Assembly: GCA_012964825.1 (NCBI GenBank)
Contig: DTTI01000084.1
Coordinates: forward strand, 62,001-126,000
Source of the DNA: Candidatus Neomarinimicrobiota bacterium
Lineage (GTDB): Bacteria; Fidelibacterota; Marinisomatia; Marinisomatales; S15-B10
Reading direction: 5' to 3'
Length of the DNA: 64,000 nucleotides
This document shows positions 9,055-63,284 of this stretch, in pieces. The translations under genes were made by a program, and so were the position numbers. Positions within the stretch are counted from its first letter, which is position 1. Every line of letters begins with the position of its first letter. The notes under the pieces are model-generated. The model did no database searches and was not told the origin of the DNA. It saw nothing but the letters and a program-made list of their open reading frames with translations.

Positions 9055-10838
9055 TGAACTCAGATAAATATGATTTTGTCATTTCCATCGGCGGTGCTGC
9101 AGGACAGGGGATTGCTGCACCGGGTGATGTATTTGCTTGGATTTTTGTCCGTCGAGGACTCCACCTTTACACCTATAATGCTTACCAGTCCATTATTCGT
9201 GGTGGCCATATTTTCCTAACTTTTCGTGTATCGACGGAAAAGGTTTATAACCACGGCGATAAAACTGACCTGTTAGTATGCTTGAATCAAGACACGATGG
9301 ACCGGCATCTGAAACACATGGAGCCGGGGAGTTGGGTCATCTACAACAGCGATACCATTAAGCCGGGCGAGGCTCAGGATGGTGTTCAGTTGTGCGGAAT
9401 ACCCGTTAAGGAGTTAAGTGACAACAACCGCAACAAGCTAGTGCAGAATACGGGGGCTCTTGGTGTCTGCATGCACATTCTCGGACTAGATTTTGGAATC
9501 TTGGAAAATATTCTCACTAAACAGTTTGTTCGGAAAGGCCAGACAGTGGTAGATGAGAACATTGGAGTTGCCCGAGCTGCGTGCGACTATGCAGTCGCAA
9601 ACTTTACGCCTTGCTCGGAAGCGATACCGGAGGGTGAAAAACCCCAGGCTTGGTGGTCCGGGAATGAAGCTTTGGCAATGGGTGGGGCTTGCGCAGGTGT
9701 CAAGTTCTACGCTGCCTACCCCATGAGTCCCGCCACAGGCGTACTCCACTGGATGGCCAAGTATGCTCGTGACCTAGGCATCATGGTTCGACAGGTTGAA
9801 GACGAAATTGGAGTTGCGACCATGGCCATTGGTGCAGCGGCTACTGGTACCAGAGCCATGTGTGCGACATCCGGGGGCGGTTTTGCCCTGATGACGGAGG
9901 CAGTTGGCAGTGCAGGGATGATGGAAATTCCGGTCGTAATGATCAATGTACAGCGAGCCGGACCATCTACCGGAGTCCCAACCAAGACCGAACAGGGGGA
10001 TTTGTGGCAGATGCTGGGTGCAAGCCAGGGGGATTTCCCAAGAATAATTGTTGCTCCTAAAGATGCTTTGGATGCTTTTAACACCGTCCCAGAGCTGTTC
10101 AACTTGGTGGATCGCTATCAGTGCCCCGGTATTATTATTTCCGATTTGTTGATTTCTGAAGGAAGGTCAAGCGTGGATCCTAACGACATCAATTTCCATC
10201 CCAATATTGACCTAGGTGAATTGATTACCAAGCACTCCACTAATGGCGACGAATATCTCCGCTACAAAAACACTGAAAGTGGAATCTCACCACGTGCTGT
10301 GCCGGGACTCAAGGGCTACGTCCATGTAATGGCAACCGATGAGCAAGACGAGGATGGTGTCCTGATCAGCGATGAATTTACGAACCCAGTCAAACGTCGG
10401 ATGATGGTCGAGAAACGCGGTCGTAAAATGCAGGATATATTCGAGCACGTCGCAGCGCCGGAAATAGAAGGGCCGAAAGAGGCCGACGTAACACTGGTCG
10501 GATGGGGATCCACCTACGGCGTTATACATGAAGCTGTCGAACAGTTGAAAACCGAAGGCATTACCGCCAACCACCTACCGATCAAGTGGATTGTCCCTTT
10601 CCACGTTAAAGAAATTATGGAAATCCTTTCCAACTGTAAGAAAGTGATTATGGTTGAAAACAACTATTCTGGCCAGTTTTATCGCTATATGCGTAGTGAG
10701 ACAGGACTGAATGTAGATACTCACATTCGCAAGTATGACGGCGAGCCTTTTATGCCCCATCAGGTTACAAATGGTGTAAAAGAGATATTGGATGGAGAGA
10801 CTGAAGTCTTTGTTCCAGAACATAAAATAATGGTTTAA
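9054..10838 (+). CDS. korA: 2-oxoacid:ferredoxin oxidoreductase, fused gamma-alpha subunit (2-oxoglutarate type)
   Basis: Oxidatively decarboxylates a 2-oxoacid, probably 2-oxoglutarate to succinyl-CoA, reducing ferredoxin. The 594-residue product has the gamma domain first (about residues 1-195, with GGAAGQGI and IRGGH segments) followed by the alpha pyrimidine-binding domain (GNEALAMGGACAG, YPMSPATG, EDEIGVATMAIGAAATGTRA, TSGGGFALM). This fused gamma-alpha layout with a separate beta gene is typical of KorAB. AAAAAGG just before the ATG is the ribosome site. korB follows 12 bp later. The 2-oxoglutarate assignment is by overall resemblance; branched-chain or pyruvate specificity is possible. 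Confidence 0.9.
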   Translation: MNSDKYDFVISIGGAAGQGIAAPGDVFAWIFVRRGLHLYTYNAYQSIIRGGHIFLTFRVSTEKVYNHGDKTDLLVCLNQDTMDRHLKHMEPGSWVIYNSDTIKPGEAQDGVQLCGIPVKELSDNNRNKLVQNTGALGVCMHILGLDFGILENILTKQFVRKGQTVVDENIGVARAACDYAVANFTPCSEAIPEGEKPQAWWSGNEALAMGGACAGVKFYAAYPMSPATGVLHWMAKYARDLGIMVRQVEDEIGVATMAIGAAATGTRAMCATSGGGFALMTEAVGSAGMMEIPVVMINVQRAGPSTGVPTKTEQGDLWQMLGASQGDFPRIIVAPKDALDAFNTVPELFNLVDRYQCPGIIISDLLISEGRSSVDPNDINFHPNIDLGELITKHSTNGDEYLRYKNTESGISPRAVPGLKGYVHVMATDEQDEDGVLISDEFTNPVKRRMMVEKRGRKMQDIFEHVAAPEIEGPKEADVTLVGWGSTYGVIHEAVEQLKTEGITANHLPIKWIVPFHVKEIMEILSNCKKVIMVENNYSGQFYRYMRSETGLNVDTHIRKYDGEPFMPHQVTNGVKEILDGETEVFVPEHKIMV

Positions 10839-10850
10839 GGAGATTATCTC

Positions 10851-11765
10851 ATGGTAACTGACACAGCAGTACAAGATGTAGAAAGACCTGTCAAAAAATT
10901 AAAGGCCAAGGATTTCAACGGAAAGGTCGATCCGGATTGGTGTCCTGGGTGCGGCGATTTTGGGGTCTTAAGTTCTCTTCAGAAGGCCTGTGTTGATCTA
11001 GAGCTGCATCCCCACGAGATTCTTACTGTCAGCGGAATTGGCTGCTCCTCTAATTTCCCTGGTTTTTTTAACTCTTACGGAATGCACACTCTCCACGGCC
11101 GCGCGCTTCCTTTTGCGACCGGTGCAAAGCTGGCCAACCATGAGCTTACGGTGATTGTTACCGGCGGAGATGGAGATGGCTATGGTATTGGGGGAAACCA
11201 CCTTACTCATCTTGCACGCAGGAATGTTGATCTTACTTACATTGTTATGAACAACCAGATTTACGGGCTTACCGTGGGGCAGACTTCACCAACCAGCGAG
11301 TTCGGCATGAAAACAAAGAGTACTCCCTTTGGTAATCTCGAAACACCATTGAATCCAATTACCGCAGCCATTATGAACGGCGCAACCTTTGTTGCTAGAG
11401 GTTATAGTGCTGATCCTAAAGGGCTGACAGACCTGCTGTGCCAGGCAATCCAACATAAAGGGTTTTCATTGGTAGATGTCTTTAGTCCATGTGTCACCTT
11501 TAATAAGGATAATACCTACGCTTGGTTTAAACCGCGGGTTAAAAAATTGGAAGATGAAGGACATGATTTCCATGATTGGAAGGCTGCTTGTGAACAAGCC
11601 CTGGTCTGGGGGAAGAAGATTTATTATGGAAAGTTCTTTCAAGTTGAGAAGAAGCCCACACTTAATGATTTAGAACCTGTACTGAACGAAGGTGGTCCAA
11701 TTTGTTTCCGTGAGCTGGGTCTTACTAAGGAGCAGTCGGATAAAATCCTCAAGGAGATGATGTAA
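10851..11765 (+). CDS. korB: 2-oxoacid:ferredoxin oxidoreductase beta subunit (2-oxoglutarate type)
   Basis: TPP-binding beta subunit partner of the preceding gene, 304 residues. It shows DWCPGCGDFG with Cys31 and Cys34, GIGCSSNFPG with a third Cys, and the TPP motif GGDGDGYGIGGNHL; the cysteines are expected to hold the [4Fe-4S] cluster. An AAGGAG ribosome site precedes the ATG. No separate ferredoxin gene is adjacent. It forms a two-gene operon with korA; malic enzyme follows on the same strand after a 149-bp gap. Confidence 0.92.
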   Translation: MVTDTAVQDVERPVKKLKAKDFNGKVDPDWCPGCGDFGVLSSLQKACVDLELHPHEILTVSGIGCSSNFPGFFNSYGMHTLHGRALPFATGAKLANHELTVIVTGGDGDGYGIGGNHLTHLARRNVDLTYIVMNNQIYGLTVGQTSPTSEFGMKTKSTPFGNLETPLNPITAAIMNGATFVARGYSADPKGLTDLLCQAIQHKGFSLVDVFSPCVTFNKDNTYAWFKPRVKKLEDEGHDFHDWKAACEQALVWGKKIYYGKFFQVEKKPTLNDLEPVLNEGGPICFRELGLTKEQSDKILKEMM

Positions 11766-30258: not shown

Positions 30259-31758
30259 CTACTTCAAGTAGAGAACTTTCCGGGAGTGTCGCTCAATCAT
30301 GCCATGAAAGTTGGTCCGCTCCAGTGTGATAATATAGAGTCCGCCGGCAAATTGAGATGCATTCCAAGGTAATTCAAAGTGACCTGCCGGGAAAGGGCCT
30401 CTAGCAAGCATCTCCACTTCTTTGCCTAGCAGATCGAGGACTGAGATCTTTATATCGGAACGCTCATTGAGAGTGAAGCTAATCTTTGTGGAGCTATTGA
30501 AGGGTGAAGGATAGACTGATAGAAGGCTGTAGCCTTCAGGCGTAATATTATCAGCCACCCGTAGAGGTTGGCTCTTGTCCGTTAGACCCTGTATCCATGC
30601 AAACCCACTGAAAAGCAGTAACGCGGCTGCTTCTCCATGTGTCCCGCAGTCGCACTCGAACAATTCAACCTGGGTAGCGCCGTTTTCCTGGAATGTTTCA
30701 TAAGCCAGTCGTGAATTTTCCACAGGGACCAGATCATCACCAGTGCTGTGAAACAGACGCATGGGTGACTGAGGCGCCCAGTCGTAGAGATCGTTATCAC
30801 GCAACGCCTCACGAAGGGGGTGATTTTCATCTTTGCTGAACGCATCTACAACGTCCGGTTCCATAATCTCCATGGGTACTGCAGGCATGGCAGCGTTTAT
30901 TTCGCTGGATGAGTGGGTTCCATCGAACAGTGGCGGGAGCAATGTGGCATATTCTTCCTTGAGAAAATCGGATGGACTTTCCCAGAGATTATAGTATTCG
31001 TCAAATGCGAAAAGCGTATAGGGGAGATAGAAGGGTGAGGGATACTCTTCTCCCGATAGCATGAGATCAACCATGACCCCAGACATATCATAGGCACCCG
31101 CTCCCGGGGCTGAGGCTGTTATGGTGAATTCTTCCGGGTGTTCTTCTTCTATCATCTTGTGGGCAGCCATCATGGTGTAGCCGCCTTCTGAATAGCCCGT
31201 GAGAAAAAGCTGTCCGTTAGTCTCTAACCCCTCTTGGTCGCAGAAAGTACGGGTTGCTCTAAGCATGTCGATAATGACGGTGGCGTTCGGTTTGGCCATC
31301 TGATAGGGGTGGAAAAGTTCAGATTCACCCAAACCCAGATAGTCGGGTATGACCGTCAAGTAACCAGAAGAAGCAGTCCACATAGCAACAATTCCGTACC
31401 CACCATCAAACCCTGTGGCCGAGGACGCTTCGTCCCGTTTTATCATGGTTCCCGATTGAAAGCTGAGTGTGGGTAGCGCAAAGGTCGGTTTTTTCGGGGC
31501 TGTAACCGATCCTGATGCGATGGTGGGCTCTCCGTTAGGGTCGATGGTTTCATAAATTAGCTTATAAATGGATGCGCCGTATGTGGCTCTAAAGAAAATG
31601 ATTGAACCTGACAGTGCCTGGTCAATCTGGTATGCTGTTTTGTGCTCTAAAAGTTCTGATGATATGAGACGGCCCCGGTCACCAGTTAGGGATTGACTAC
31701 CAACCAGATTGAGCACAGTGAAAATTGTGAGTATAAACAGTCTGTGTAAATTCTTCAT
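30259..31758 (-). CDS. Secreted alpha/beta hydrolase with C-terminal sorting domain
   Basis: A 499-residue secreted hydrolase. Signal peptide at 1-22, then an alpha/beta-hydrolase domain of the secretory-lipase type: PDYLGLGES, the nucleophile elbow GYSEGGYTMMAAH, an acidic residue in STGDDLVP, and His in CGTHGEAA. From about residue 415 a beta-sandwich module begins (YPSPFNSSTKISFTL ... LDLLGKEVEML ... GLYIITL) like the type A sorting domain of T9SS cargo/FlgD-like Ig folds. It implies export across the outer membrane in an FCB-type bacterium. Likely esterase or lipase; the substrate is unknown. Confidence 0.85.
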   Translation of the reverse strand: MKNLHRLFILTIFTVLNLVGSQSLTGDRGRLISSELLEHKTAYQIDQALSGSIIFFRATYGASIYKLIYETIDPNGEPTIASGSVTAPKKPTFALPTLSFQSGTMIKRDEASSATGFDGGYGIVAMWTASSGYLTVIPDYLGLGESELFHPYQMAKPNATVIIDMLRATRTFCDQEGLETNGQLFLTGYSEGGYTMMAAHKMIEEEHPEEFTITASAPGAGAYDMSGVMVDLMLSGEEYPSPFYLPYTLFAFDEYYNLWESPSDFLKEEYATLLPPLFDGTHSSSEINAAMPAVPMEIMEPDVVDAFSKDENHPLREALRDNDLYDWAPQSPMRLFHSTGDDLVPVENSRLAYETFQENGATQVELFECDCGTHGEAAALLLFSGFAWIQGLTDKSQPLRVADNITPEGYSLLSVYPSPFNSSTKISFTLNERSDIKISVLDLLGKEVEMLARGPFPAGHFELPWNASQFAGGLYIITLERTNFHGMIERHSRKVLYLK

Positions 31759-31787: not shown

Positions 31788-32720
31788 TTATCCCTCGAAG
31801 AAGAACAAATCTTGATTGTTGTAAAAGTTATCGTAAAGACTGTCCATAGAGTCGAGGATAAAATAACGATCTTGAATGTTACTATAGTCGAAGCGTGTCA
31901 TAACCACTTCTTTCATATCAAATTGAAGGAACTGAGAAAAATCCGACTCGCCTTTGCTGCAAGCGACTACATTCATTACTTCATCATAACCTGAGATAAT
32001 GCCAGAACCGAAAATCTCGTGGTCAATGTCGTTAAGCAGAAACCGTCGTTCCTCGCTGCCAAGCTGCTTTTTTTGGATACCAAATTCATAACCCCACCAG
32101 ACAAAATTCTGGAGACGTTTTAGATTGTGTGCTATAAGATCCGGCCCGAGCTCACGTTCGTCATTAAGGAGTTCCAATCCCAACTTGCCTACATCACACA
32201 GAAAGTCCCCAAACTTTTTGTTCATCAGCAAAGGTGTGTGACCAAGGATGTCGTGAACAATATCTGGCTCCGGCGTGTATTCGTCCGTGTTAGCGATGGG
32301 AGTGCTTTCATATTTCTGCTCAAGTCGCTCTGACTGGCGAATAATATCTGTAACGGGAAATTCCCGGTTAGCGTTTAATTCGAAGAAGGGCCGTTCCTCC
32401 AAAAAGCCGGCAACAGGTGTCAGTTTCCAGTCACTTGCAGCTTTGGTACGGCGTGAAAGTTCGGTGAAGTTGGGCCACTTTTCAGCAGTGAGCCCTAACG
32501 CTTTAAGACCGTCCAGGTATTCCATACTGGCATATCGTTTAAGAGGCTTTTCGAGATTGTCAAAGAGTCTTTGCCAAACTTCCAGCTCAGCTTCCGTCAC
32601 TGCCTCATAATCTTGTTGAATGAGGTAGTCATCTTCTTTTGAAAAAATCTTAATATCGCCTACAGCGTTGGGGATAAGGTGGTGAAACAGGTGGTCGTAC
32701 TTTGTATATCTGTCTATCAC
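31788..32720 (-). CDS. phhA: Phenylalanine 4-monooxygenase
   Basis: Pterin- and iron-dependent hydroxylase converting phenylalanine to tyrosine, 310 residues. The facial triad is visible: His156 and His161 in EPDIVHDILGHTPLL and Glu212 in WGYEFG. Start is GTG at 32720. Pterin-recycling genes (e.g. pterin-4a-carbinolamine dehydratase) are not adjacent. The 166-bp gap upstream also holds the divergent promoter of the motor operon. Tryptophan hydroxylase specificity is less likely in bacteria. Confidence 0.93.
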   Translation of the reverse strand: MIDRYTKYDHLFHHLIPNAVGDIKIFSKEDDYLIQQDYEAVTEAELEVWQRLFDNLEKPLKRYASMEYLDGLKALGLTAEKWPNFTELSRRTKAASDWKLTPVAGFLEERPFFELNANREFPVTDIIRQSERLEQKYESTPIANTDEYTPEPDIVHDILGHTPLLMNKKFGDFLCDVGKLGLELLNDERELGPDLIAHNLKRLQNFVWWGYEFGIQKKQLGSEERRFLLNDIDHEIFGSGIISGYDEVMNVVACSKGESDFSQFLQFDMKEVVMTRFDYSNIQDRYFILDSMDSLYDNFYNNQDLFFFEG

Positions 32721-32796: not shown

Positions 32797-32826
32797 TTGA
32801 CATATATGACACAAACAGGTTACACT
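32797..32826 (+). promoter_or_regulatory. Sigma70-type promoter of the motor operon
   Basis: Perfect TTGACA at 32797-32802, an 18-base spacer, and TACACT at 32821-32826 (four of six to TATAAT). It lies about 60 bases before the GTG start of the first gene of the operon, in an AT-rich region with repeated TTTTGCAT segments just upstream (near 32777 and 32784). It is the best promoter match in the window. Confidence 0.6.
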
Positions 32827-32886: not shown

Positions 32887-34020
32887 GTGAAGCAAATAGC
32901 TAAAAGTGTATTCATATTGTCAAGCCTGTTTTTCTTAACAACGGCTCTACCTGCTAAGACGTACAAGATTTCCGGTAAGGTCATCGACCTTGAAGGTGAG
33001 GGTGTACCCGCAGCCCAGGTTGTCCTACTGGATGCCGATGGTGAAGAGGTGGGGAAAGAGACCACTAAGAAAAGGATCGGGAAAGGTGGTTTTGAATTCA
33101 AAAAAATAGATTCAGGAACTTATACTCTCAAGGCCAGTGGTGACGGCGGCGAAGCGACCCAGGAAGTGACTATTGATGAAGATAATGTTAAAGGTGTTGA
33201 ACTGACGCTTGGTGCTGAACCTGCGCCAAAGAGAAGGGCTGCTGCTGGGGTTGGTGAAGGTGAGGAAGAAGGACCAGCGGAGCGATTGCCCCAGGAAGAG
33301 TATGTGATGACTGAGATCAGTTTTGAGCTGAAGAAAATGGCGGCTGAGCTGGATCATATGTCAGGGCAGGTCCGGGACCTTCAGGCCAGAAGTGAAATGT
33401 GGGTTAACCCACTCTCCATTTACCAGAAAGAGATTATTCTTGATAACGGTAGTACAATGTTCGGCAAAGTGGTCTATCAGGATGAGGATATCTTGAAGGT
33501 GGAAACAATTGTGGGCTACCTGGTCATTGACAGGAGTACTGTTGTGAGGATCGTGGAAAATGTAATGGCACAGGAGGAGCCTGAATATGTACCGGAGCAG
33601 ATCCGGGAATCTTACAGTCCTCCACCCATGCCCAAGCTAGCTCAGCCTCGTTATGTTTCTGCCGAATCTGCTGACCGCGCCTCCAGCCGTCGTAGGGCCG
33701 CTAATATTGTTCTTGTAGGCAACATTTCTGAGAAAAAGGACCGATCTAATAACGTTGCACTGGCGGGGCAGGTGAAAAATGTAGGCGGCCACCGGGCCGA
33801 TTTTGTTAAAGTTAACTTTGTTATCCGGAAAAACTGGAGTGGTGAGACCAGAACACTTACAACTTTCGTAGCTGGTTCTTATTACACTTTTGATTCCGGG
33901 ATTACAACCGATTCTTCACTTCTCCCGGGTGCCACAGGGAATTTTGAACTTATCATTCCCGCTGATGTGGGGTCATTTCTCGGTTATTCGTATACTATTG
34001 ACTGGGAAGAGTACGAATGA
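32887..34020 (+). CDS. Exported protein: carboxypeptidase-regulatory-like domain, coiled coil, FxLYD-like domain
   Basis: First gene of the motor operon; GTG start with a GAGG ribosome site. The 377-residue product has a signal peptide (1-23), a carboxypeptidase-regulatory/CnaB-like beta domain (about 26-108, KISGKVIDLEGEGVPAAQV), a charged linker, a helical coiled-coil segment (about 140-168), a short beta-rich piece with GSTMFGKVVYQDEDIL, a Pro/Ala-rich linker, and a C-terminal FxLYD-like domain (about 275-372). It is likely periplasmic or outer-membrane-associated. Its stop overlaps the next start (ATGA). It matches no flagellar protein; it may anchor or load the motor against the envelope. 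Confidence 0.75.
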   Translation: MKQIAKSVFILSSLFFLTTALPAKTYKISGKVIDLEGEGVPAAQVVLLDADGEEVGKETTKKRIGKGGFEFKKIDSGTYTLKASGDGGEATQEVTIDEDNVKGVELTLGAEPAPKRRAAAGVGEGEEEGPAERLPQEEYVMTEISFELKKMAAELDHMSGQVRDLQARSEMWVNPLSIYQKEIILDNGSTMFGKVVYQDEDILKVETIVGYLVIDRSTVVRIVENVMAQEEPEYVPEQIRESYSPPPMPKLAQPRYVSAESADRASSRRRAANIVLVGNISEKKDRSNNVALAGQVKNVGGHRADFVKVNFVIRKNWSGETRTLTTFVAGSYYTFDSGITTDSSLLPGATGNFELIIPADVGSFLGYSYTIDWEEYE

Positions 34021-34988
34021 GTAACAGCTGGTGTCTCTGGCTAAGGTCGTTCTTGATTCTCGGCTTTGTTTTTTCCACTCTTATTGGTCAGCAGTCGTCA
34101 TCTGCGTTCTCTTCAAATTCCGATGCCTTTTTTCTTGATCTGGGCGTGGTCATTGAACCCGCAACAGGGAAAGAGGAAGTAGACCGCTATATCAAATCAC
34201 CTCCGGAGGAAGCTTCCTTTTTTCTTGATAAGAAGCCTAGCGGATCGGTCTACATGGCGACCACCAAACAATTGCATGAAACACTCCTGCGGATTCATGA
34301 AAAAATTGAAGGTCTTGAGACAAATCTTCATAACGAAATGACCGGTTTTAAAGAAGAGAATTTCCGGCGTATAAATGACCGTATCACTTTGTTAGAAAAG
34401 GCGCTTGGTGCTCAAATGACAACACTCCGGACAGAAAACAAGGATCTGCGGGGCATGATCTCCGATCTTCTTGCGCAGGAGGCACCTGTAATCGCAGAAG
34501 CGTTTTCTCCTTCTGTGATGGAAAAAATCGCCCCACCTGTTCCCGGTGTTACGTTGGAAGAGTTGACGGTATTAGAACCTGAAGAAGATGCTGTGACGAC
34601 TTCAGAAGCGCCACCTTTCAACAGGATGGTCTACATGAACGGTGTTCTTGCTTACCAGCGGGGAGATTACGGTGCAGCGGTTGGACATTTTGAGAAACTG
34701 TCCCTGGCTGAACTGGATGATATCACAGCCGGCAACATTCTCTACTGGCTTGCTGAATGCTACTTCCGCCTGGACAACTTCCGTGAGGCGTTACGCCTGT
34801 TACAATGGGTTGATGTGCTATTCGAATCTGATAAACGTGATGACGCCATGGCCCTCACCGGCATGGTGTACCGAGAGATGGGAGAGTATAACCAATCGCA
34901 GCAAGCCTTTGCTGAAATCATTGACTTTTTCCCTGACAGTGAATATCTCCGCCTTGCCCAAATGGAGCTGAGGAAGGGAGTGAAATGA
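34017..34988 (+). CDS. Exported coiled-coil plus TPR protein (CpoB-like architecture)
   Basis: Signal peptide (1-25), an extended region, a coiled coil of about 70 residues (80-150, e.g. LHETLLRIHEKIEGLETNL), then TPR-like helices (about 208-322: YMNGVLAYQRGDYGAAVGHFE, YWLAECYFRLDNFREALRLL, MVYREMGEYNQSQQAFAEII). This order, coiled coil then TPR in the periplasm, is that of CpoB/YbgF of the Tol-Pal system, but sequence identity is not claimed. It overlaps the previous gene (ATGA) and lies 1 bp from the next. It may trimerise and coordinate the motor with cell-wall or outer-membrane proteins. Confidence 0.78.
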   Translation: MSNSWCLWLRSFLILGFVFSTLIGQQSSSAFSSNSDAFFLDLGVVIEPATGKEEVDRYIKSPPEEASFFLDKKPSGSVYMATTKQLHETLLRIHEKIEGLETNLHNEMTGFKEENFRRINDRITLLEKALGAQMTTLRTENKDLRGMISDLLAQEAPVIAEAFSPSVMEKIAPPVPGVTLEELTVLEPEEDAVTTSEAPPFNRMVYMNGVLAYQRGDYGAAVGHFEKLSLAELDDITAGNILYWLAECYFRLDNFREALRLLQWVDVLFESDKRDDAMALTGMVYREMGEYNQSQQAFAEIIDFFPDSEYLRLAQMELRKGVK

Positions 34989-34989
34989 G

Positions 34990-36369
34990 ATGATATCGCG
35001 GCGACTTTTAAGACTTCTCGTTCTTGCCCTCTGTTTTTTGGCTCATCTGTCTGCGGTGACGCGTGTGTCGTTCACTCATCCAGGTTTCATGATGAAAATC
35101 CCAACCACCTTTATTAAACGGTCCCCCTACCTATTTACCTCCGGTTTTACTACAGAGGTTCACAGCTTTTCACCGTTCAATACGGCGAAGGGGGTCTTTT
35201 TCAGTATGGATGTCTCCGACCGTTTTACCCTTGGTTTTTCTTCCGGACAAGGGGCGGACACCACAGCAGTGGAGAAGATTCTAGAGTCGACTTATATTCC
35301 CCCAGTGGAGTTCGGCTTTCATACACAGTACAAAGTTTTTGTTCGTCAGGATATGTCAGTCACAATTGGTTTGCATGACGTCATTTTTGAAAATGATGCA
35401 AGCGAAGGTTTAAGGCTCGATCCCAAGCAGCTTACCTTCTTTGTCGCCGTGGGGAGCGAGAAAGAATTTGGCCAGTATCACATGAGTACCTATATGGGGT
35501 TTGGGACTGGTGGCTTCTCTGTACAGCCCACAGCCCTTGCTCCCGGTACTGCTGAGGCTGACACCGTATCGCAGGGGATGGGTGCAGGTGTCTTCGCTGG
35601 CGTTTTGCTAAAGACACCATTCATGCCCAAGTGGGGCGGAATAGATTTTGTGGGTGAATTCGACGGTGCAGGCCTCAATGTGGGACTCCGCATCCCCCTT
35701 ACCTCGGATTACCGCCTGGGCCTAGGATTCACCCACATAGAAAATTTGCCTGAGTTTTCTAATAAATATGATGCAAAGCACCCCGGTCTTGTGATGAATT
35801 TCACAATGACGATCCCGAAGGGTGTGCCTGGGTTACCTGGTCTTCCAGGAGCGCCGTCACCTGTGCCTGATAGAATTGCGGGCCCGGGGATCGGTATCAT
35901 CGACTCAACACTCATGGCAGCGGACGGTGCAGTAACTGTACTGCGGGATTCACTAAAATTGTCACGACACCAAGTGCGAAACCTTGCCACGCAGGTTTCC
36001 CTTTTGCAACAGAAGTCAGTTTCCCTGGCAGATTCTGTGAAATCACTTAACCTTGAAAAGAATGTGTCGCAGAAAAGTATTAACCGCGCCATGCGCCATC
36101 TGTCCCGGTCGCTCCGTTATTTTCATTCCGGAGACTACAGGGAAGCACTTCAGGAAGTGGAGACAGCCCTTGATATGAACCCCAACCTGGCTCTTGCCTA
36201 TGCTCGCCGGGGATCTATCTATTATCAGCTTGGCGATCCGCAGAGAGCGACAATTAACTGGAATCTTGCTCTCCAGATGGATCCAGAATATGATGATGTG
36301 CGAAACATTTTAAAGGCTCTTCATGAGAATAGACTTAAAACAACAAGTTTCTCCAGAGATGAGGATTAG
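34990..36369 (+). CDS. Outer-membrane beta-barrel-like protein with collagen-like linker, coiled coil and TPR
   Basis: 459 residues. Signal peptide (1-24), then a beta-rich region of about 250 residues like a small outer-membrane barrel (GFSSGQGADTTAVEKILEST, MSTYMGFGTGGF, GLNVGLRIPLTSDYRLGLGF). It is followed by a short collagen-like Gly-x-x stretch (GVPGLPGLPGAP, about residues 278-290), a coiled coil (about 315-360), and C-terminal TPR helices (YREALQEVETALDMNPNLALAYARRG, then a second repeat). The C-terminus would project into the periplasm. It is 3 bp before motA. It is a candidate outer-membrane partner that the motor pushes or rotates. Confidence 0.75.
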   Translation: MISRRLLRLLVLALCFLAHLSAVTRVSFTHPGFMMKIPTTFIKRSPYLFTSGFTTEVHSFSPFNTAKGVFFSMDVSDRFTLGFSSGQGADTTAVEKILESTYIPPVEFGFHTQYKVFVRQDMSVTIGLHDVIFENDASEGLRLDPKQLTFFVAVGSEKEFGQYHMSTYMGFGTGGFSVQPTALAPGTAEADTVSQGMGAGVFAGVLLKTPFMPKWGGIDFVGEFDGAGLNVGLRIPLTSDYRLGLGFTHIENLPEFSNKYDAKHPGLVMNFTMTIPKGVPGLPGLPGAPSPVPDRIAGPGIGIIDSTLMAADGAVTVLRDSLKLSRHQVRNLATQVSLLQQKSVSLADSVKSLNLEKNVSQKSINRAMRHLSRSLRYFHSGDYREALQEVETALDMNPNLALAYARRGSIYYQLGDPQRATINWNLALQMDPEYDDVRNILKALHENRLKTTSFSRDED

Positions 36370-36372
36370 TTC

Positions 36373-37158
36373 ATGGATATTGCCACACTCGTAGGAATTC
36401 TTTTAGGGCTTGGCTTCACTATTGGGGGTATTGCCATGGCCGCTATAGCAGCTGGTGCTTCAGCCATGGTCTTTGTTTCCGGTTCCAGTTTTGTCATTGT
36501 ATTCGGGGGGATGATTGCTTCCGTATCGGTGGCCTTTCCTCTTTCAGAAGTACTGAAACTGGGGGCAGCCATGGGTGCTGTTTTTAAAGGCAAAGACGAA
36601 AAGCTTGGCGGGCTGGTAGACGAAGCGGTTGATTTGGCCGATGTGGGGCGAAAAGGCGCTGCGGACCTGGAAAAAGGTGTTGAAAGCGTCAAAAATTTTT
36701 TCTTCAGAGACGGAGTTCAAATGGTGATAGATGGATACTCAGAAGAAGAGATTGTAGACATTCTTAATACACGAATTGATTACAGAGAGATCCGTGAGAA
36801 GAGTCAGGCTGAACTTTTTAAAACCATGGGAAACATGTCGCCGGCTTGGGGAATGATTGGTACGCTTATTGGCCTGGTTATCATGCTGTCCGGTTTCGGC
36901 GGTGAGGGCGGTGGTACTGACGCCCTTGGAATTGGTATGTCCGCAGCTCTTATCACTACTTTTTATGGAGCACTTATGGCAAATCTTTTTTTCTTGCCCA
37001 TGGCAGCAAAACTGAATTCACGTATTAGCCAGACAAGCACGGCACAAGCCATGCTAGTGGAAGCATCACGGTTGATCCACCAGCGCAAACACCCTCTTAT
37101 CGTTAGAGAAAAATTAAATTCGTTCATTCCTCCGAAGGAGTGGAAGAGAGAAGAATAA
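36373..37158 (+). CDS. motA: MotA/PomA-type stator protein
   Basis: Four-helix stator subunit, 261 residues, clearly MotA/PomA rather than TolQ/ExbB. It has MDIATLVGILLGLG at the start, FPLSEV after helix 2, the cytoplasmic loop FFRDGVQMVIDGYSEEEI, GNMSPAWGMIGTLIGLVIML in helix 3 (Pro157), and AALITTFYGALMANLFFLP in helix 4 (Pro209). The Thr in GMIGT (Thr164) and ITT (Thr195/196) match the PomA-type Na+ stator rather than H+ MotA, where Ala is usual. The cytoplasmic loop keeps charged residues where MotA contacts FliG. It sits in an operon with MotB, FliF-like and FliG-like genes but no other flagellar gene. Confidence 0.92.
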   Translation: MDIATLVGILLGLGFTIGGIAMAAIAAGASAMVFVSGSSFVIVFGGMIASVSVAFPLSEVLKLGAAMGAVFKGKDEKLGGLVDEAVDLADVGRKGAADLEKGVESVKNFFFRDGVQMVIDGYSEEEIVDILNTRIDYREIREKSQAELFKTMGNMSPAWGMIGTLIGLVIMLSGFGGEGGGTDALGIGMSAALITTFYGALMANLFFLPMAAKLNSRISQTSTAQAMLVEASRLIHQRKHPLIVREKLNSFIPPKEWKREE

Positions 37159-37163
37159 TCCTC

Positions 37164-37958
37164 ATGGCAGCTACTGCCCAAGAAAAGAAAAAATATATAG
37201 CTAAAGGCCGTGACCAGGTAGATGAAGGCCTGCCTGGCTGGTTTGGCACCTTTGCTGATATGATGACTTTGCTCTTTGCGTTCTTCGTATTGCTTGCGGC
37301 GATATCTACAATTGATCCGGTAAAGCTTCAGGAAATGGCTGATGGTATGGGTAAATCGGTAGGCAAAAAGGAAAAATTGGACAATCAGTCCATGTCCCTG
37401 TCTGATGTGAAGAAAGCGGCAGAAAAAATGGTAGAAGAGATGGAAGCTGATCCTGAGACGGGAGAAAAGCCCGTAGAGGTGACAACTGGGCCCAAAGGTG
37501 TTACTATCGGCATATCCTCAGATATCAGTTTCTCCTCTGGTTCTGCTAACCTTAAGTCAGGGATCGTGGACGTTCTAGACAAAATTGTGCCCACCATTCA
37601 GTCTTCCTATTTCATGGTGGCTGTAGAAGGACATACAGATACAGATATACTTCCTCAATCCATACAGTCAATATATCCCTCAAACTGGGAACTTTCAGGC
37701 GCCAGGGCTTCTGCTGTGGTAAGACAGCTGATAAATATGGAGGTGTCCCCCACGAGGCTTCAATCTGTCGGTTATGCGCAATATGTGCCGAGAGATCGAC
37801 CACAAGACAGAGTAATAAATGATGAGCTCATCGCAGAGCTTAATGCTACAAAAGAAATGAAAGCCCGAAATCGTCGCGTGGAAATCACCTTTCTTGCGTC
37901 CGGTATTTCGGGATCACAATTGTCTAAAATCGAGGAGGAAACTCCCGTAAAACAGTAA
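37164..37958 (+). CDS. motB: MotB/PomB-type stator protein with OmpA peptidoglycan-binding domain
   Basis: Ion-conducting stator partner, 264 residues from ATG 37164. One N-terminal membrane helix carries the essential acidic residue: WFGTFADMMTLLFAFFVLL, with Asp32 at the same number as in E. coli MotB, which supports this start over the in-frame GTG at 37140. A plug/linker of about 60 residues precedes an OmpA-like domain (about 110-250) with VEGHTDT, NWELSGARASAVVRQL and NRRVEI, expected to bind peptidoglycan. The start is 5 bp after motA. It completes the stator unit of the operon. Confidence 0.92.
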   Translation: MAATAQEKKKYIAKGRDQVDEGLPGWFGTFADMMTLLFAFFVLLAAISTIDPVKLQEMADGMGKSVGKKEKLDNQSMSLSDVKKAAEKMVEEMEADPETGEKPVEVTTGPKGVTIGISSDISFSSGSANLKSGIVDVLDKIVPTIQSSYFMVAVEGHTDTDILPQSIQSIYPSNWELSGARASAVVRQLINMEVSPTRLQSVGYAQYVPRDRPQDRVINDELIAELNATKEMKARNRRVEITFLASGISGSQLSKIEEETPVKQ

Positions 37959-37986
37959 TATTCCGAGGTAAAGGGAGAGCGGTAAA

Positions 37987-39564
37987 ATGAAAATGCGGAT
38001 TATTAAGTCCTTCATAGGACTCACACTCATAGCGAGCATAACGGCCCAGGAGTCAACCTACCTAGCCCAGAAATTGATGCTCGAGAACGACCTGCGCAGC
38101 CGAATCGAATCGGCTCTGCAGAAAATCATGGACGATCACAGGTATGTCCTTGATGTGACTGTGGACCTTAAGTTCACGCCTACTATAACGGAGGAAGTGA
38201 CCTTTCGTCCGGCAGGTTCTGATGATGCGAAGTCAGCAGTCATGTCAGGCAGACAGGAAGCGGAAAGATCCATTCCCATCACATCTGAATCTCGAGAGCC
38301 ACGCTCACGGATGACAGGTATTCCCATACCGGGATTCGATTTTCAGAGTATGGAAGATGAAGAGCCTGTGGTGGAATCTGTAGCTGAAGAGCCAGCTGAT
38401 ATGCTGGTGGCAGCACCTAAAGGTCCCAGGGAAGGTTCTCAGATTTTGAGTCAGTCCTACAAGGATACGAAAGCTTCAGTTCCTATTATTGAGAGACTGG
38501 AGGTGAGCTGTATTTTGCCCGAAGGTTCTGCACCTGAGCTCATTGAAAACGTAAGACAGATTATTATGGTGGCATCTCATTTTGACAGAAATCGCGGAGA
38601 TATGCTTTCTGTGATGACCGCCTCTTTCCGTCAAAGGAAAGATGAGCGGACGGCGGAGTCTATCATACTCCGTTCTATTGCTGCAAAGATCGATCATCTG
38701 GAGGAGAAACAGGCTGATGCTGAGGCGCAGGTTGCGGAAGACTGGCGTATGGAACTTGAGAGTTGGAAGGGTGAAGAAACCCGGCGCCGGGAAGAAGAAC
38801 GTGCTGTCTGGCGAGCTGAACTGGATCGACTTGAAAATGACCGGATGACCAGGGAATTTGATAACGAGCGGAAAGCATTGCTTGAAAGAGATTCACTCCG
38901 GATGAACCAGTTGACTGATGAGATCTCTCAACTCAGAGATGTTCTTACGGGGCCTCAGCTCTCTGAGGAAGAGCAAGCAGTGGCTGTGCAAGCCATGACC
39001 AGCAAAGAAGTGGAGAAAGCTGCACTGGATTCTCTGATTGAAGAAAAACTGGCCATGCTTGAACAGGCACAAAAAGAAATGGAAAGCATGGGAGGCGGGA
39101 TGAGTAATATTCCCATTTATCTCATGAGTGCCATTTCATTGTTAGCTGTTCTGGCCTTGGCAGCGGTGATTCTGTTCAACGGACGTTCCAAACCCAAGTA
39201 TGTTATGCCACCGCCATGGATGATGCAGCCACCGAAAAAAAAAGCAATGAAAAATAGTAACGGGGATGTTTCAACAGCTACCACAGCTACCACAGCTACA
39301 ATGGCTGCCCCTGTTGCGGCACCGCCCACCCCGGCTCCGGCATTTCAAGAGGACCCCAGTGTTCTCCAGTCTGAAGTGAGTAAAACTCGCGAGTCTGTTG
39401 TTAGCATGAGTGTGGGTGACCCAGAGGTGGCCACTTCCGTAGTTCAGGATTGGTTAGAGCAAGAAGCACCTCCTCCGCCGGAAGAACCGGCTGCTACACC
39501 GGCACCGGCTCCAGAGGCTGAAGAGGATGATGGTAAAAAGAAGAAAAAGAAGAAAAAGAAGTAG
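37987..39564 (+). CDS. FliF-like MS-ring protein, shortened and rebuilt (RBM3/collar, coiled coil, TM, FliG-binding-like tail)
   Basis: 525 residues. N-terminus is a signal peptide (1-21) instead of FliF's first membrane helix. Residues about 24-75 (YLAQKLMLENDLRSRIESAL, LDVTVDLKF) and 155-214 (SQSYKDTKASVPIIERLEV, VASHFDRNRGDMLSVMTASF) match the FliF collar/RBM3 region, where flagellar FliF has 'R.L.VAV' and 'GFD..RGD.V.V'. RBM1 and RBM2 are absent. A charged coiled coil (about 220-368) is inserted, then a TM helix (376-397), a Pro/Ala-rich cytoplasmic linker, and a short helix region at 460-492 (VSKTRESVVSMSVGDPEVA, VVQDWL) like the FliF tail that binds FliG. It ends with nine lysines. An AGGGAGAG ribosome site precedes ATG. 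Likely an inner-membrane ring; the homology is remote but consistent. Confidence 0.8.
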   Translation: MKMRIIKSFIGLTLIASITAQESTYLAQKLMLENDLRSRIESALQKIMDDHRYVLDVTVDLKFTPTITEEVTFRPAGSDDAKSAVMSGRQEAERSIPITSESREPRSRMTGIPIPGFDFQSMEDEEPVVESVAEEPADMLVAAPKGPREGSQILSQSYKDTKASVPIIERLEVSCILPEGSAPELIENVRQIIMVASHFDRNRGDMLSVMTASFRQRKDERTAESIILRSIAAKIDHLEEKQADAEAQVAEDWRMELESWKGEETRRREEERAVWRAELDRLENDRMTREFDNERKALLERDSLRMNQLTDEISQLRDVLTGPQLSEEEQAVAVQAMTSKEVEKAALDSLIEEKLAMLEQAQKEMESMGGGMSNIPIYLMSAISLLAVLALAAVILFNGRSKPKYVMPPPWMMQPPKKKAMKNSNGDVSTATTATTATMAAPVAAPPTPAPAFQEDPSVLQSEVSKTRESVVSMSVGDPEVATSVVQDWLEQEAPPPPEEPAATPAPAPEAEEDDGKKKKKKKKK

Positions 39565-39577
39565 GTAGGCACAGGCA

Positions 39578-40510
39578 ATGATTACTGAATACTACAAACT
39601 AGCCGGAATTGACAAAGTTGCTGTCCTCTTCTCCATCATCGGGGAGAGTGTTGCAGTGAAACTGTTAAAGAGTCTCAGCGAATCAGATATTCGTCGTATT
39701 CGCGCGCGAGATAGGGAGATGGAGCCTGTTTCCACTGCTTTAAAAAAGCAGATATTGGATGAGTTTTACCTTGGTATCATTTCTCAAAAGCTGAAAAGTG
39801 AGGGAGAACCAGAATCGAGGAAGCCGTTTGATTTCCTTGAGGAATTGGCTGATGAACAGCTCATTGCTTTACTGGAAGTGGAAGAGCCGCGCATCATTGC
39901 CATCGCCCTTGCTCAGGTTTCGTCTGAGCGCAAGATGAAAGTTTTGGAACGCCTAAATCCTGAGACTAAGGGCCAGGTACTGATACAGATCGGGTCATTG
40001 CAGAATGTTCCTCTTGAGGGGATTGTGAATGTGGCCAGTCAGCTCAGGACAAAGTCGCTCTACCTACCGAAAGGGGTAGAGTTTGCCCGCGGCGGCGGGA
40101 AGGATGTGGCGGGTCTTCTTGGGCAGATGTCTTCTTTTGAGGAAGAGCAGTTTATGGAAACCATCACCCGAGAGAACCCTGAGTTGGCAGAAGAGATTAA
40201 AAAGTACCACCTTACATTTGACAATATTCTTTCCTATTTCCCTGAAAATCTGCTTCGTGATCTTATGAACTCCGTGGAGCTTGATAACGTCGCTCTTTCC
40301 CTTAAGGGCTACAGTCAAGAAGAAGTGGACAAGGTAATAAAAAACCTTCCTAAAAAGAAACAGGCCATGTTTGAACCGGTGGAAGGTGCGGCAGCGAAAC
40401 GTGATGTGGACAAAGCTCAGAAGTCCATTGTTGACGCCGCTCGGCAAATGGAGAAGGACGGCAGATTTAATCTGGAAGACCTTCTTGGCTCTGCCGAAAT
40501 GGTTGAATAA
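39578..40510 (+). CDS. FliG-like rotor protein
   Basis: 310 residues with all three FliG domains. N-domain (1-~90): IDKVAVLFSIIGESVAVKLL and LSESDIRRI. Middle domain (~85-165): FDFLEELADEQLIALLEVEEPRIIAIALAQ, where EEPR (102-105) replaces the flagellar EHPQ. C-domain (~185-300): MNSVELDNVALSLKGYSQEE and DVDKAQKSIVDAARQMEKDGRF match the FliG torque region; Lys243 aligns with the conserved Lys of ALKG, and Lys259-261 and Glu266/269 provide charge near the positions of the E. coli torque residues. It is the last gene of the operon, 13 bp after the FliF-like gene. No FliM/FliN switch genes are in the window. Confidence 0.9.
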   Translation: MITEYYKLAGIDKVAVLFSIIGESVAVKLLKSLSESDIRRIRARDREMEPVSTALKKQILDEFYLGIISQKLKSEGEPESRKPFDFLEELADEQLIALLEVEEPRIIAIALAQVSSERKMKVLERLNPETKGQVLIQIGSLQNVPLEGIVNVASQLRTKSLYLPKGVEFARGGGKDVAGLLGQMSSFEEEQFMETITRENPELAEEIKKYHLTFDNILSYFPENLLRDLMNSVELDNVALSLKGYSQEEVDKVIKNLPKKKQAMFEPVEGAAAKRDVDKAQKSIVDAARQMEKDGRFNLEDLLGSAEMVE

Positions 40511-40542: not shown

Positions 40543-40578
40543 CCGAGGAATCAGATATTATCTGATTTCCGGTTTTTA
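40543..40578 (+). terminator. Rho-independent terminator of the motor operon
   Basis: An 8-bp perfect stem AATCAGAT (40549-40556), ATT loop, ATCTGATT (40560-40567), extended by CCG/CGG pairing, is followed by GGTTTTTA. It lies 33 bp after the FliG-like stop and before the convergent amidase gene. Confidence 0.8.
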
Positions 40579-61828: not shown

Positions 61829-63284
61829 TTAGTCGCATGGTTTCCATCTCGATCATTTTTTCTTCGTCTACGTTCCCTGAAACATACCAGCCATCGAGAC
61901 ATGCCATGCACGGACGATCAATGTTGTGATCGCCTCTTCGGGTCACTGCTTCTACTAGGTCGGGGATTTCCTGGTAAAGGAGAATGTCCACACCGATATA
62001 GGCCTGGATTTCATCAACCGATTTCTGGGCAGCAATCAGTTCTGACCGAGTTGGCATATCCACACCGTAGAAACAGGGATTCTTCACCGGTGGACAGGCA
62101 GAAACAAAGTAAACTTCTTTTGCACCCATGTCCTTAACCATACGGACAATTTGCCGACTTGTGTTTCCACGGACGATGCTGTCATCAACGATCATCACTT
62201 TTTTGTCTCGGATCTCGATTTCCTGCGGAACCAGCTTATATCGGATCGATTTCTTCCGTTCGGCTTGGCCCGGCATGATGAATGTTCGTCCAATGAATGG
62301 ATTTTTATATAGACCTTCAGAGTAACGGACGCCCAGTTCGTAAGCTAATGACAAGGCGGCGGTATTGGCTGTGGAAGGTGCTGGGATGACGATGTCCGGA
62401 TGAATATCGGGATATTTTTCAGCCCATTTTTTTGCCAAGTTCTGACCCATCCTTAGTCTAGAGCGGTAAACACTTACGTCATTCATCATTGTGTCCGGGC
62501 GGGAGAAGTAGACGTACTCGAAAATGCAGGGTGTGAATTCGTCCGACGCAAGTTTTTTACTGAAAACTTTGCCACTTTCACTTACATAGTAAACTTCGCC
62601 TGGTTCAACATTGCCTTTCGGTTTGAATCCCAGTGAATGAAACATGGTAGTCTCGCTAGAAAATATGTGATCAACAGAACCGTTGTCACTTGTGCGCTCA
62701 CCTCTTGACAGTGGCCGTATACCATGTGGATCCCTGAAGGCGATAAGTCCTTTTCCCACGATTGCGGCTACCACCGAAAAAGACCCGGTGGCACGGGCAA
62801 AGACACTTTTTACTGCACCACAGATTTGTTCGAAAAATGCTTTGTCTGATTTTGATGAACCGTTTTGTTCCAGTGCACTGGCAAACATGTGGAGCAAAAC
62901 TTCTGTGTCGCTGTTAGTGTTGAGGTACCGTTTCTCTCTATCCGTGATCTCTTTCGCCAACTCTTTATAGTTGACAAGGTTGCCGTTATGTCCCAGGGCG
63001 ACACCGTAAGGTACTTCCGTCCAGAAGGGCTGAATCTCGCCATGACCAAAACCACCATGAGTTGGGTATCGGGTGTGGCCAATTCCTACGTTACCCTTGA
63101 GCAGGTTCATGTTTTGCTCATTAAAGATATCCCGAACTAGACCGAGACCTTTCTCTTTATGCATGCGAAGATCATAAGTGATAATTCCGGCGGCATCCTG
63201 ACCCCGATGCTGGAGATGGATCAGGCTGTCATAAAGTTCAGATGCTACGGACGTCTGTGCCTGGATTCCCACAATGCCGCACAT
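61809..63284 (-). CDS. purF: Amidophosphoribosyltransferase (Fe-S-type)
   Basis: First committed step: PRPP plus glutamine to phosphoribosylamine, 491 residues. Cys2 right after Met is the glutaminase nucleophile (MCGIVGI, no propeptide), LQHRGQDAAG follows, and VMIVDDSIVRGNTSRQI is the PRPP loop. Cysteines in PCIFEYVYFSRPD, NPCFYG and PCMACLDG match the [4Fe-4S] ligands of the B. subtilis type, although that enzyme has an 11-residue propeptide that this one lacks. Its start overlaps the purB stop by one base (TGATG). Confidence 0.95.
   Translation of the reverse strand: MCGIVGIQAQTSVASELYDSLIHLQHRGQDAAGIITYDLRMHKEKGLGLVRDIFNEQNMNLLKGNVGIGHTRYPTHGGFGHGEIQPFWTEVPYGVALGHNGNLVNYKELAKEITDREKRYLNTNSDTEVLLHMFASALEQNGSSKSDKAFFEQICGAVKSVFARATGSFSVVAAIVGKGLIAFRDPHGIRPLSRGERTSDNGSVDHIFSSETTMFHSLGFKPKGNVEPGEVYYVSESGKVFSKKLASDEFTPCIFEYVYFSRPDTMMNDVSVYRSRLRMGQNLAKKWAEKYPDIHPDIVIPAPSTANTAALSLAYELGVRYSEGLYKNPFIGRTFIMPGQAERKKSIRYKLVPQEIEIRDKKVMIVDDSIVRGNTSRQIVRMVKDMGAKEVYFVSACPPVKNPCFYGVDMPTRSELIAAQKSVDEIQAYIGVDILLYQEIPDLVEAVTRRGDHNIDRPCMACLDGWYVSGNVDEEKMIEMETMRLNDRNGE

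Follow-up and report, generated by a model that had tools for sequence, protein, structure and literature searches.

In flagella, the RBM1 and RBM2 domains of FliF surround the export gate, and the EHPQR motif of FliG binds FliM. Tetratricopeptide repeat (TPR) and coiled-coil proteins scaffold the stators of other motors, and the motor of gliding and the type IX secretion system (T9SS) is ion-driven, with a long periplasmic shaft to outer-membrane parts. We know of no Tol-Pal system with a FliF/FliG rotor. A 2025 survey reports that 11% of non-motile species have rotor genes but lack those for the filament, offers a remnant or an alternative function as readings, and asks what use half a motor is, a question that it leaves open (PMC12199754). 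Here we describe an operon of Candidatus Marinimicrobia (Neomarinimicrobiota) that provides a concrete and testable case of a half-motor, with a named and conserved outer half that is kept across the phylum. It lies in a stretch of 64,000 nucleotides, hereafter the window, from GenBank assembly GCA_012964825.1 (contig DTTI01000084.1, forward-strand positions 62,001 to 126,000), a genome of 2.2 Mb in 84 contigs with a completeness of 97.6%. Searches of the open-licence PubMed Central literature, preprints being outside their scope, turned up no account of such a FliF/FliG/MotAB operon in Marinimicrobia.

The operon consists of seven + strand genes over 32887–40510, in the order g1, g2, g3, motA, motB, fliF-like, and fliG (Table 1), with spacings of −19 to +28 bases and opposite-strand genes on either side. 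We assign a probability of roughly one half to the reading that it encodes a non-flagellar, ion-driven rotary machine spanning the cell envelope, in which g1, g2, and g3 form the load-bearing outer half. As a first-pass annotation made from the sequence had claimed, g1, g2, and g3 are coupled open reading frames directly 5′ of motA on the same strand, separated by −4 (g1/g2), +1 (g2/g3), and +3 bases (g3/motA, with the motA start at 36373), and their products of 377, 323, and 459 amino acids carry signal-peptide-like N termini. If the reading is true, the flagellar stator–rotor core can be reused apart from secretion and swimming, and the operon is a candidate motor for a marine phylum in which the export protein FlhA (PF00771) was over cut-off in 40 of 199 sampled genomes and below cut-off or absent in the other 159.

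Foremost, the three envelope proteins belong with the motor, on the evidence of co-occurrence and fixed gene order. Across the 199 phylum genomes, g1 was strongly matched in 136, g3 in 134, and the FliF-like protein (E ≤0.001) in 131; all three were present in 127 genomes, at least two in 135, and none in 60. The strong g1 set had 14 of 150 genomes with weak matches (E >1e-30) dropped, and the strong g3 set was defined by a best E ≤1e-20, as 178 genomes match g3 at E ≤0.001 and the weaker of these matches often fall in the TPR region. Taken pairwise, g1 and the FliF-like protein occurred together in 128 genomes, g1 alone in 8, the FliF-like protein alone in 3, and neither in 60 (Fisher p = 5e-38, phylogeny ignored; the combined presence lists were compiled by hand from search outputs). 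The order g1-g2-g3-motA-motB-fliF-fliG did not vary among 40 loci of 29 families; these were picked from genomes with g3 or FliF-like matches and so speak to gene order and not to how often it occurs. Among 80 named loci picked by g3, motA followed g3 in 79, the exception (L161) ending 33 bases past g3; the 40-locus and 80-locus sets share organisms and are not independent. The first-pass annotation had held that finding the three genes widely without the motor would show their adjacency to be due to chance. The fixed order and the co-occurrence contradict this, and chance adjacency was rejected.

The same observations bear on the reading that the operon is the remnant of a lost flagellum, with g1, g2, and g3 as chance neighbors. 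The 11% of non-motile species that have rotor but not filament genes would fit it (PMC12199754), but an operon fixed across 29 families, the near-perfect co-occurrence of g1 and g3 with the motor, the retention of ion and force residues, a separate FliG clade, and the presence of the system beside FlhA in 31 genomes leave it very improbable. A decayed flagellum was rejected on gene order, FliG clade, kept residues, and co-occurrence. The host phylum is Ca. Marinimicrobia: a scan of a contig collection matched 165 stretches, 146 of them encoding a relative, and among the best 80 of these 146, 72 were titled Marinimicrobia or Neomarinimicrobiota and 8 “bacterium,” “FCB group bacterium,” or “uncultured bacterium” (counted by eye).

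Like the flagellum, the operon encodes MotA and MotB with their ion and force residues, a FliG with N, M, and C domains, and a FliF-like protein with RBM3 and a FliG-binding-type helix. Among aligned homologues of the system, MotA R90 is kept in 111 of 112, E98 in 110 of 112, and P173 and P222 in all 112, while all 106 MotBs retain D32. MotA R90 and E98 are reported to interact with FliG D289 and R281 (PMC7564593); in the system FliGs, K264 is kept in 82 of 83 and all 83 have K or R at the R281 position. All three FliG domains are over the Pfam cut-off, and the TIGR00207 equivalog cut-off is missed (111.1/226.7). In a tree of 29 FliG rows (19 from the system, 9 flagellar, and E. coli), the system FliGs formed a single clade with a support of 100/100, separate from the flagellar FliGs of the same phylum; the corresponding split among 34 MotAs had a support of only 80/100. 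A second motA/motB pair occurs on another contig of the source genome (C79; locus L202, 5307–6850), with no FliF or FliG seen nearby, and its MotA match crosses two stop codons, so that it may be decayed or misassembled.

In contrast to flagellar FliG, the system protein is shortened between its N and M domains, with 21–28 residues between E. coli positions 66 and 117 vs. 50 (22–29 lost from the N–M connection). It also lacks the EHPQ motif, whose H and Q are replaced, with E kept in 83 of 83 sequences and P in 47 of 83. This motif, as EHPQR, lies in the middle domain of FliG (PMC6290876). Its loss is in keeping with the absence of FliM. In the FliF-like protein, the match to FliF is confined to the RBM3/C-terminal part (PF08345, E 1.5e-6; TIGR00206, E 5.6e-10, 239–305 of 555), and a profile of 22 homologues aligned to residues 270–461 of a solved FliF and weakly to its last helix. 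Pfam, NCBIfam, and profile comparison gave no RBM1 or RBM2 match. In place of the two-transmembrane layout of flagellar FliF, one strong transmembrane segment (TM) lies beyond the signal region, and a by-eye alignment matches the tail to those of flagellar FliFs of the same phylum. The stretch from RBM3 to the TM counts 162 residues in the window protein (median 165, range 44–210, in the 91 of 100 homologues that were measurable); of six flagellar FliFs, the two that were measurable have 23 and 32. The loss of RBM1 and RBM2 agrees with the missing FlhA.

Indeed, FlhA, FliM/FliN (PF01052), and FlgI (PF02119) gave no match in the source genome. FliM/FliN matched 3 of 25 genomes, as against 4 of 14 controls, FlgI was present in 3 of 25 genomes searched, and the system stands without FlhA in 104 genomes. 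As the first-pass annotation had put it, the layout is unlike flagellar P/L rings, the outer part here being a set of barrel, lipoprotein, and TPR components. Judged by its FliF architecture and by FliM/FliN, FlhA, and FlgI, the predicted machine is one that works like a flagellar motor and is not a flagellum. The pairing of a compact flagellar-type motor with three envelope proteins in one cluster suggests that its target is the cell envelope and not a flagellum.

To describe the outer half, we begin with g3, whose fold comparisons predict a 12-strand outer-membrane barrel. The AlphaFold2 model (62 sequences; predicted local distance difference test [pLDDT] 81, predicted template modeling score [pTM] 0.52) has twelve long strands over residues 47–276, a helix at 306–380, and TPR helices up to residue 457. 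Foldseek, which the first-pass annotation had proposed as a check, placed the barrel among outer-membrane barrels, with FapF (1.3e-5) and NanC (3.8e-5) as the top matches. VIA-align gave a Z of 17.4 against KdgM (root-mean-square deviation [rmsd] 2.3, 163 aligned) and 16.1 against NanC (rmsd 3.0, 176 aligned), with a range of 15.8–17.4 across 162–183 residues for KdgM, NanC, and VhGalP. The predicted barrel fold of residues 47–276 is shared with KdgM, NanC, and FapF, but identity in the VIA-align rows is 7–9%, and g3 adds a 75-residue helix and TPRs. Pfam left the barrel region unmatched in all 62 g3 homologues, and the TPRs are clear (PF07719, E 9.2e-11). Of the barrel, collagen-like linker, and C-terminal TPR originally ascribed to g3, the barrel and TPR stand, as does the exact occurrence of GVPGLPGLPGAP, but the linker is not conserved: in a 25-row alignment, GVPGLPGLPGAP is the window's own form of a variable linker, and pLDDT is <50 at residues 280–305. 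The linker was rejected as a functional part on these grounds. A search of a plasmid collection with the g3 barrel gave no match, and a PHROGs search gave one weak match, in the TPR region. In one locus (L038 of genome G012, 9557–11265), g3 is split across two overlapping frames, by a frameshift or an assembly error.

The g1 protein combines a CarboxypepD_reg/CnaB-type domain (residues 28–108; PF13620, E 1.6e-10, over cut-off), a coiled coil (136–173), a five-strand beta domain (181–224), and a C-terminal Ig-like/FxLYD-like beta sandwich (274–372). Its description as an exported CnaB/FxLYD protein is borne out for export and for the presence of CnaB. The FxLYD match is sub-threshold (NF038353, E 2.3e-4, 21.0/23 bits), although a second, C-terminal beta sandwich is present in the AlphaFold2 model (pLDDT 76.8, pTM 0.35); VIA-align matched the N-terminal domain only (Z 13.1), the folds spanning mostly residues 24–113 and barely covering the remainder. 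The CnaB domain is not part of the core. Of 40 aligned g1 proteins, 19 lack it, and conservation is strong from residue ∼143 to the C terminus (∼143–376, in the 40 homologues), so the core comprises the coiled coil, the beta domain, and the Ig-like domain, and CnaB as a core part was rejected. By alignment, the CnaB part is a lineage-specific addition. Those 19 proteins carry a Cys at the signal-peptide end (by eye), a lipoprotein-like N terminus in the lineages without CnaB. A script applied to a larger g1 set, rougher than the by-eye reading of the 40, gave the same trend: 30 short N termini with Cys and 6 without, 11 long ones with and 37 without, and 12 unplaced.

The build of g2 is that of a coiled-coil/TPR protein resembling CpoB, as first described, but membership in that family did not hold: g2 misses both the YbgF cut-off (TIGR02795, E 1.7e-10, but 41.5/90.1 bits) and that of the CpoB equivalog model (14.3/383 bits) by far, so that “CpoB-like” is true of its architecture only. 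Many lineages carry two tandem copies of g2. The resemblance raises the possibility of a Tol-Pal-like system that would use proton flow to pull on the outer membrane during envelope upkeep or division; g2 would stand in for YbgF/CpoB, and MotB would provide the anchor to peptidoglycan. Both systems would have an ion-driven inner-membrane pair, a periplasmic TPR coiled-coil protein, and a peptidoglycan-binding OmpA domain, and canonical TolB was over cut-off in 0 of 25 genomes vs. 2 of 14 controls, with many weak propeller matches. We nevertheless regard such a system as quite improbable given the bit scores of g2, a FliF/FliG rotor that is not known from Tol-Pal, and the complete absence of the machine from 60 of 199 genomes, which would be unusual for envelope upkeep.

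In the envelope-spanning rotary machine that we favor, the FliF-like protein would form a ring that holds a ring of FliG, and ion flow through MotAB would turn the latter. The FliF-like stalk would raise the RBM3 collar through the periplasm and replace the flagellar rod as the drive shaft; with no rod to drive, the collar is the likely shaft. At the outer membrane, g1, g2, and g3 would take up the shaft via their coiled coils and TPRs, and torque would be passed on to the barrel complex or its surface cargo. The loss of RBM1/RBM2, the export gate, and FliM/FliN is consistent with a rotor that has no subunits to export and no CheY-driven reversal. The machine may serve in gliding, in powering T9SS, or in envelope work.

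Several points weigh against this assignment. The contact of g1, g2, and g3 with the motor and their carrying of load are our inference, and the results fit either direction of coupling, load or static support. The g2 protein went undetected in 10 of 80 loci, in which g1-g3 ran straight into a complete motor; being undetected in this minority of loci, it is not indispensable. FliG position 288 is D or E in only 17 of 83 sequences, and position 289 is E in 14 and a gap in 69; with the acidic pair (E. coli D288/D289) lost in most of the clade, the FliG–stator contact is altered. The helical stalk of the FliF-like protein is putative, judged from its sequence, with lengths of 44–210. Moreover, chemotaxis genes are not linked to the system, and CheW was present in 5 of the 104 system genomes without FlhA; its scarcity suggests that there is no chemotactic switching, and chemotaxis control was set aside as unsupported.

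The linkage of g1, g2, and g3 to the motor fits equally well with a static role, as an outer-membrane/peptidoglycan bushing or stator scaffold comparable to P/L rings or accessory disks and collars, and not as an output. We consider this possible but rather doubtful. TPR and coiled-coil proteins act as stator scaffolds in other motors, and no other candidate for an outer half is fixed nearby, the commonest further neighbor, a TPR protein, occurring in 36 loci. FlcA and PflA, for instance, are named as partners of E-ring proteins (PMC13023049). A bushing, however, needs a rod, and FlhA and FlgI were not found in the source genome; a static g1-g3 would also leave the motor without an identified load in the operon.

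A different output is offered by T9SS: the motor could power T9SS or T9SS-linked gliding, with g1, g2, and g3 coupled to that apparatus. SprA (TIGR04189) matched 193 of 199 genomes, 185 of them over cut-off and the source genome among them, and GldL (TIGR03513) was over cut-off in 1 of 199, with no match in the source genome. With SprA near-universal and GldL so rare, the T9SS/gliding motor appears to be missing in the phylum, which makes the operon a candidate for it, and a Por_Secre_tail protein (30259–31758) adjoins the operon. GldM (TIGR03517) matched 0 of 120 genomes, with the controls also without a match. The likeness to the Gld motor is one of overall plan, not of parts, as the rotor here is FliF/FliG in place of GldL-GldM (with GldK/GldN). 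Yet 59 SprA-matching genomes, including the streamlined family f2, are without the motor (by lists likewise compiled by hand); SprA therefore does not need it, and the link is loose. Moreover, SprA in the source genome (E 5.7e-192) lies on another contig (C71; locus L203, 1033–7356), with no shared neighborhood seen. We judge this coupling unlikely. Family f16 departs from the rest, with GldL over cut-off in one genome (G193:C9) and a full-length SprA in another (G185:C9), possibly by transfer or contamination.

Returning to the load-bearing machine, we tentatively propose that it represents a new class of trans-envelope rotary machines, in which a FliF homologue is its own drive shaft, with the RBM3 collar on a coiled-coil stalk. 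With similar reserve, its rotor, without secretion or a filament (flagellin, hook, and rod families were outside the searches), might turn or drag a complex of barrel, lipoprotein, and TPR proteins. It is conceivable, on the same speculative footing, that the class drives surface movement or powers T9SS-type surface display in an uncultured marine phylum with SprA and without GldL.

Table 1. Features of the operon and its borders (window positions)
Feature	Position	Strand	Basis
Promoter-like site TTGACA-18-TACACT, 60 bases 5′ of g1	32797..32826	+	Consensus scan, 10/12 positions; weak
g1, exported protein	32887..34020	+	Open reading frame, Pfam/NCBIfam matches, AlphaFold2 model
g2, exported coiled-coil + TPR protein, DLGIVIEP-type N-terminal motif	34017..34988	+	Open reading frame, Pfam/NCBIfam
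g3, predicted outer-membrane beta-barrel protein, periplasmic helix + TPR	34990..36369	+	Open reading frame, Pfam, AlphaFold2, Foldseek, VIA-align
g3 predicted 12-strand barrel domain, residues 47–276	35128..35817	+	AlphaFold2, Foldseek, VIA-align
g3 predicted 75-residue helix, residues 306–380, then TPR helices to 457	35905..36129	+	AlphaFold2; TPR by Pfam
motA, stator	36373..37158	+	PF01618 E 1.2e-26; MotA-type NCBIfam models; R90/E98/P173/P222 positions kept
motB, stator; TM Asp + OmpA-type peptidoglycan-binding domain	37140..37958	+	PF13677 E 1.6e-15; PF00691 E 2e-11
FliF-like; signal/N-anchor, RBM3 only, putative helical stalk, C-terminal TM (∼377–396), FliG-binding-type tail	37987..39564	+	PF08345, TIGR00206
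FliG; N/M/C domains, short N–M connection	39578..40510	+	PF01706 E 1.4e-22; PF14842 5e-14; PF14841 4.3e-9
Terminator-like hairpin 3′ of fliG	40547..40569	+	Pattern scan, 10 pairs, 3 G-C; weak

The region holds 12 promoter-like sites vs. 8.7 expected, which makes the evidence for the site before g1 weak. On the − strand, the adjoining gene with the Por_Secre_tail encodes a secreted lipase-like protein, the tail being a T9SS-type C-terminal sorting domain, and a biopterin-dependent aromatic amino acid hydroxylase is encoded at 31788–32720 (−); a similar-looking protein lies 5′ of the operon in 29 loci. The TPR protein found 5′ of g1 (L155, 6047–6670, and 35 other loci) is lipoprotein-like in some members and, among loci with room for it, occurs in 12 of 17 without g2 and 24 of 83 with g2. 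Finally, the metagenome-assembled genome UBA2125 carries two versions of the operon (L112 and L157), one of which is like that of the metagenome-assembled genome UBA7300 (L111) in size and score, suggesting that UBA2125 is a mixed bin.

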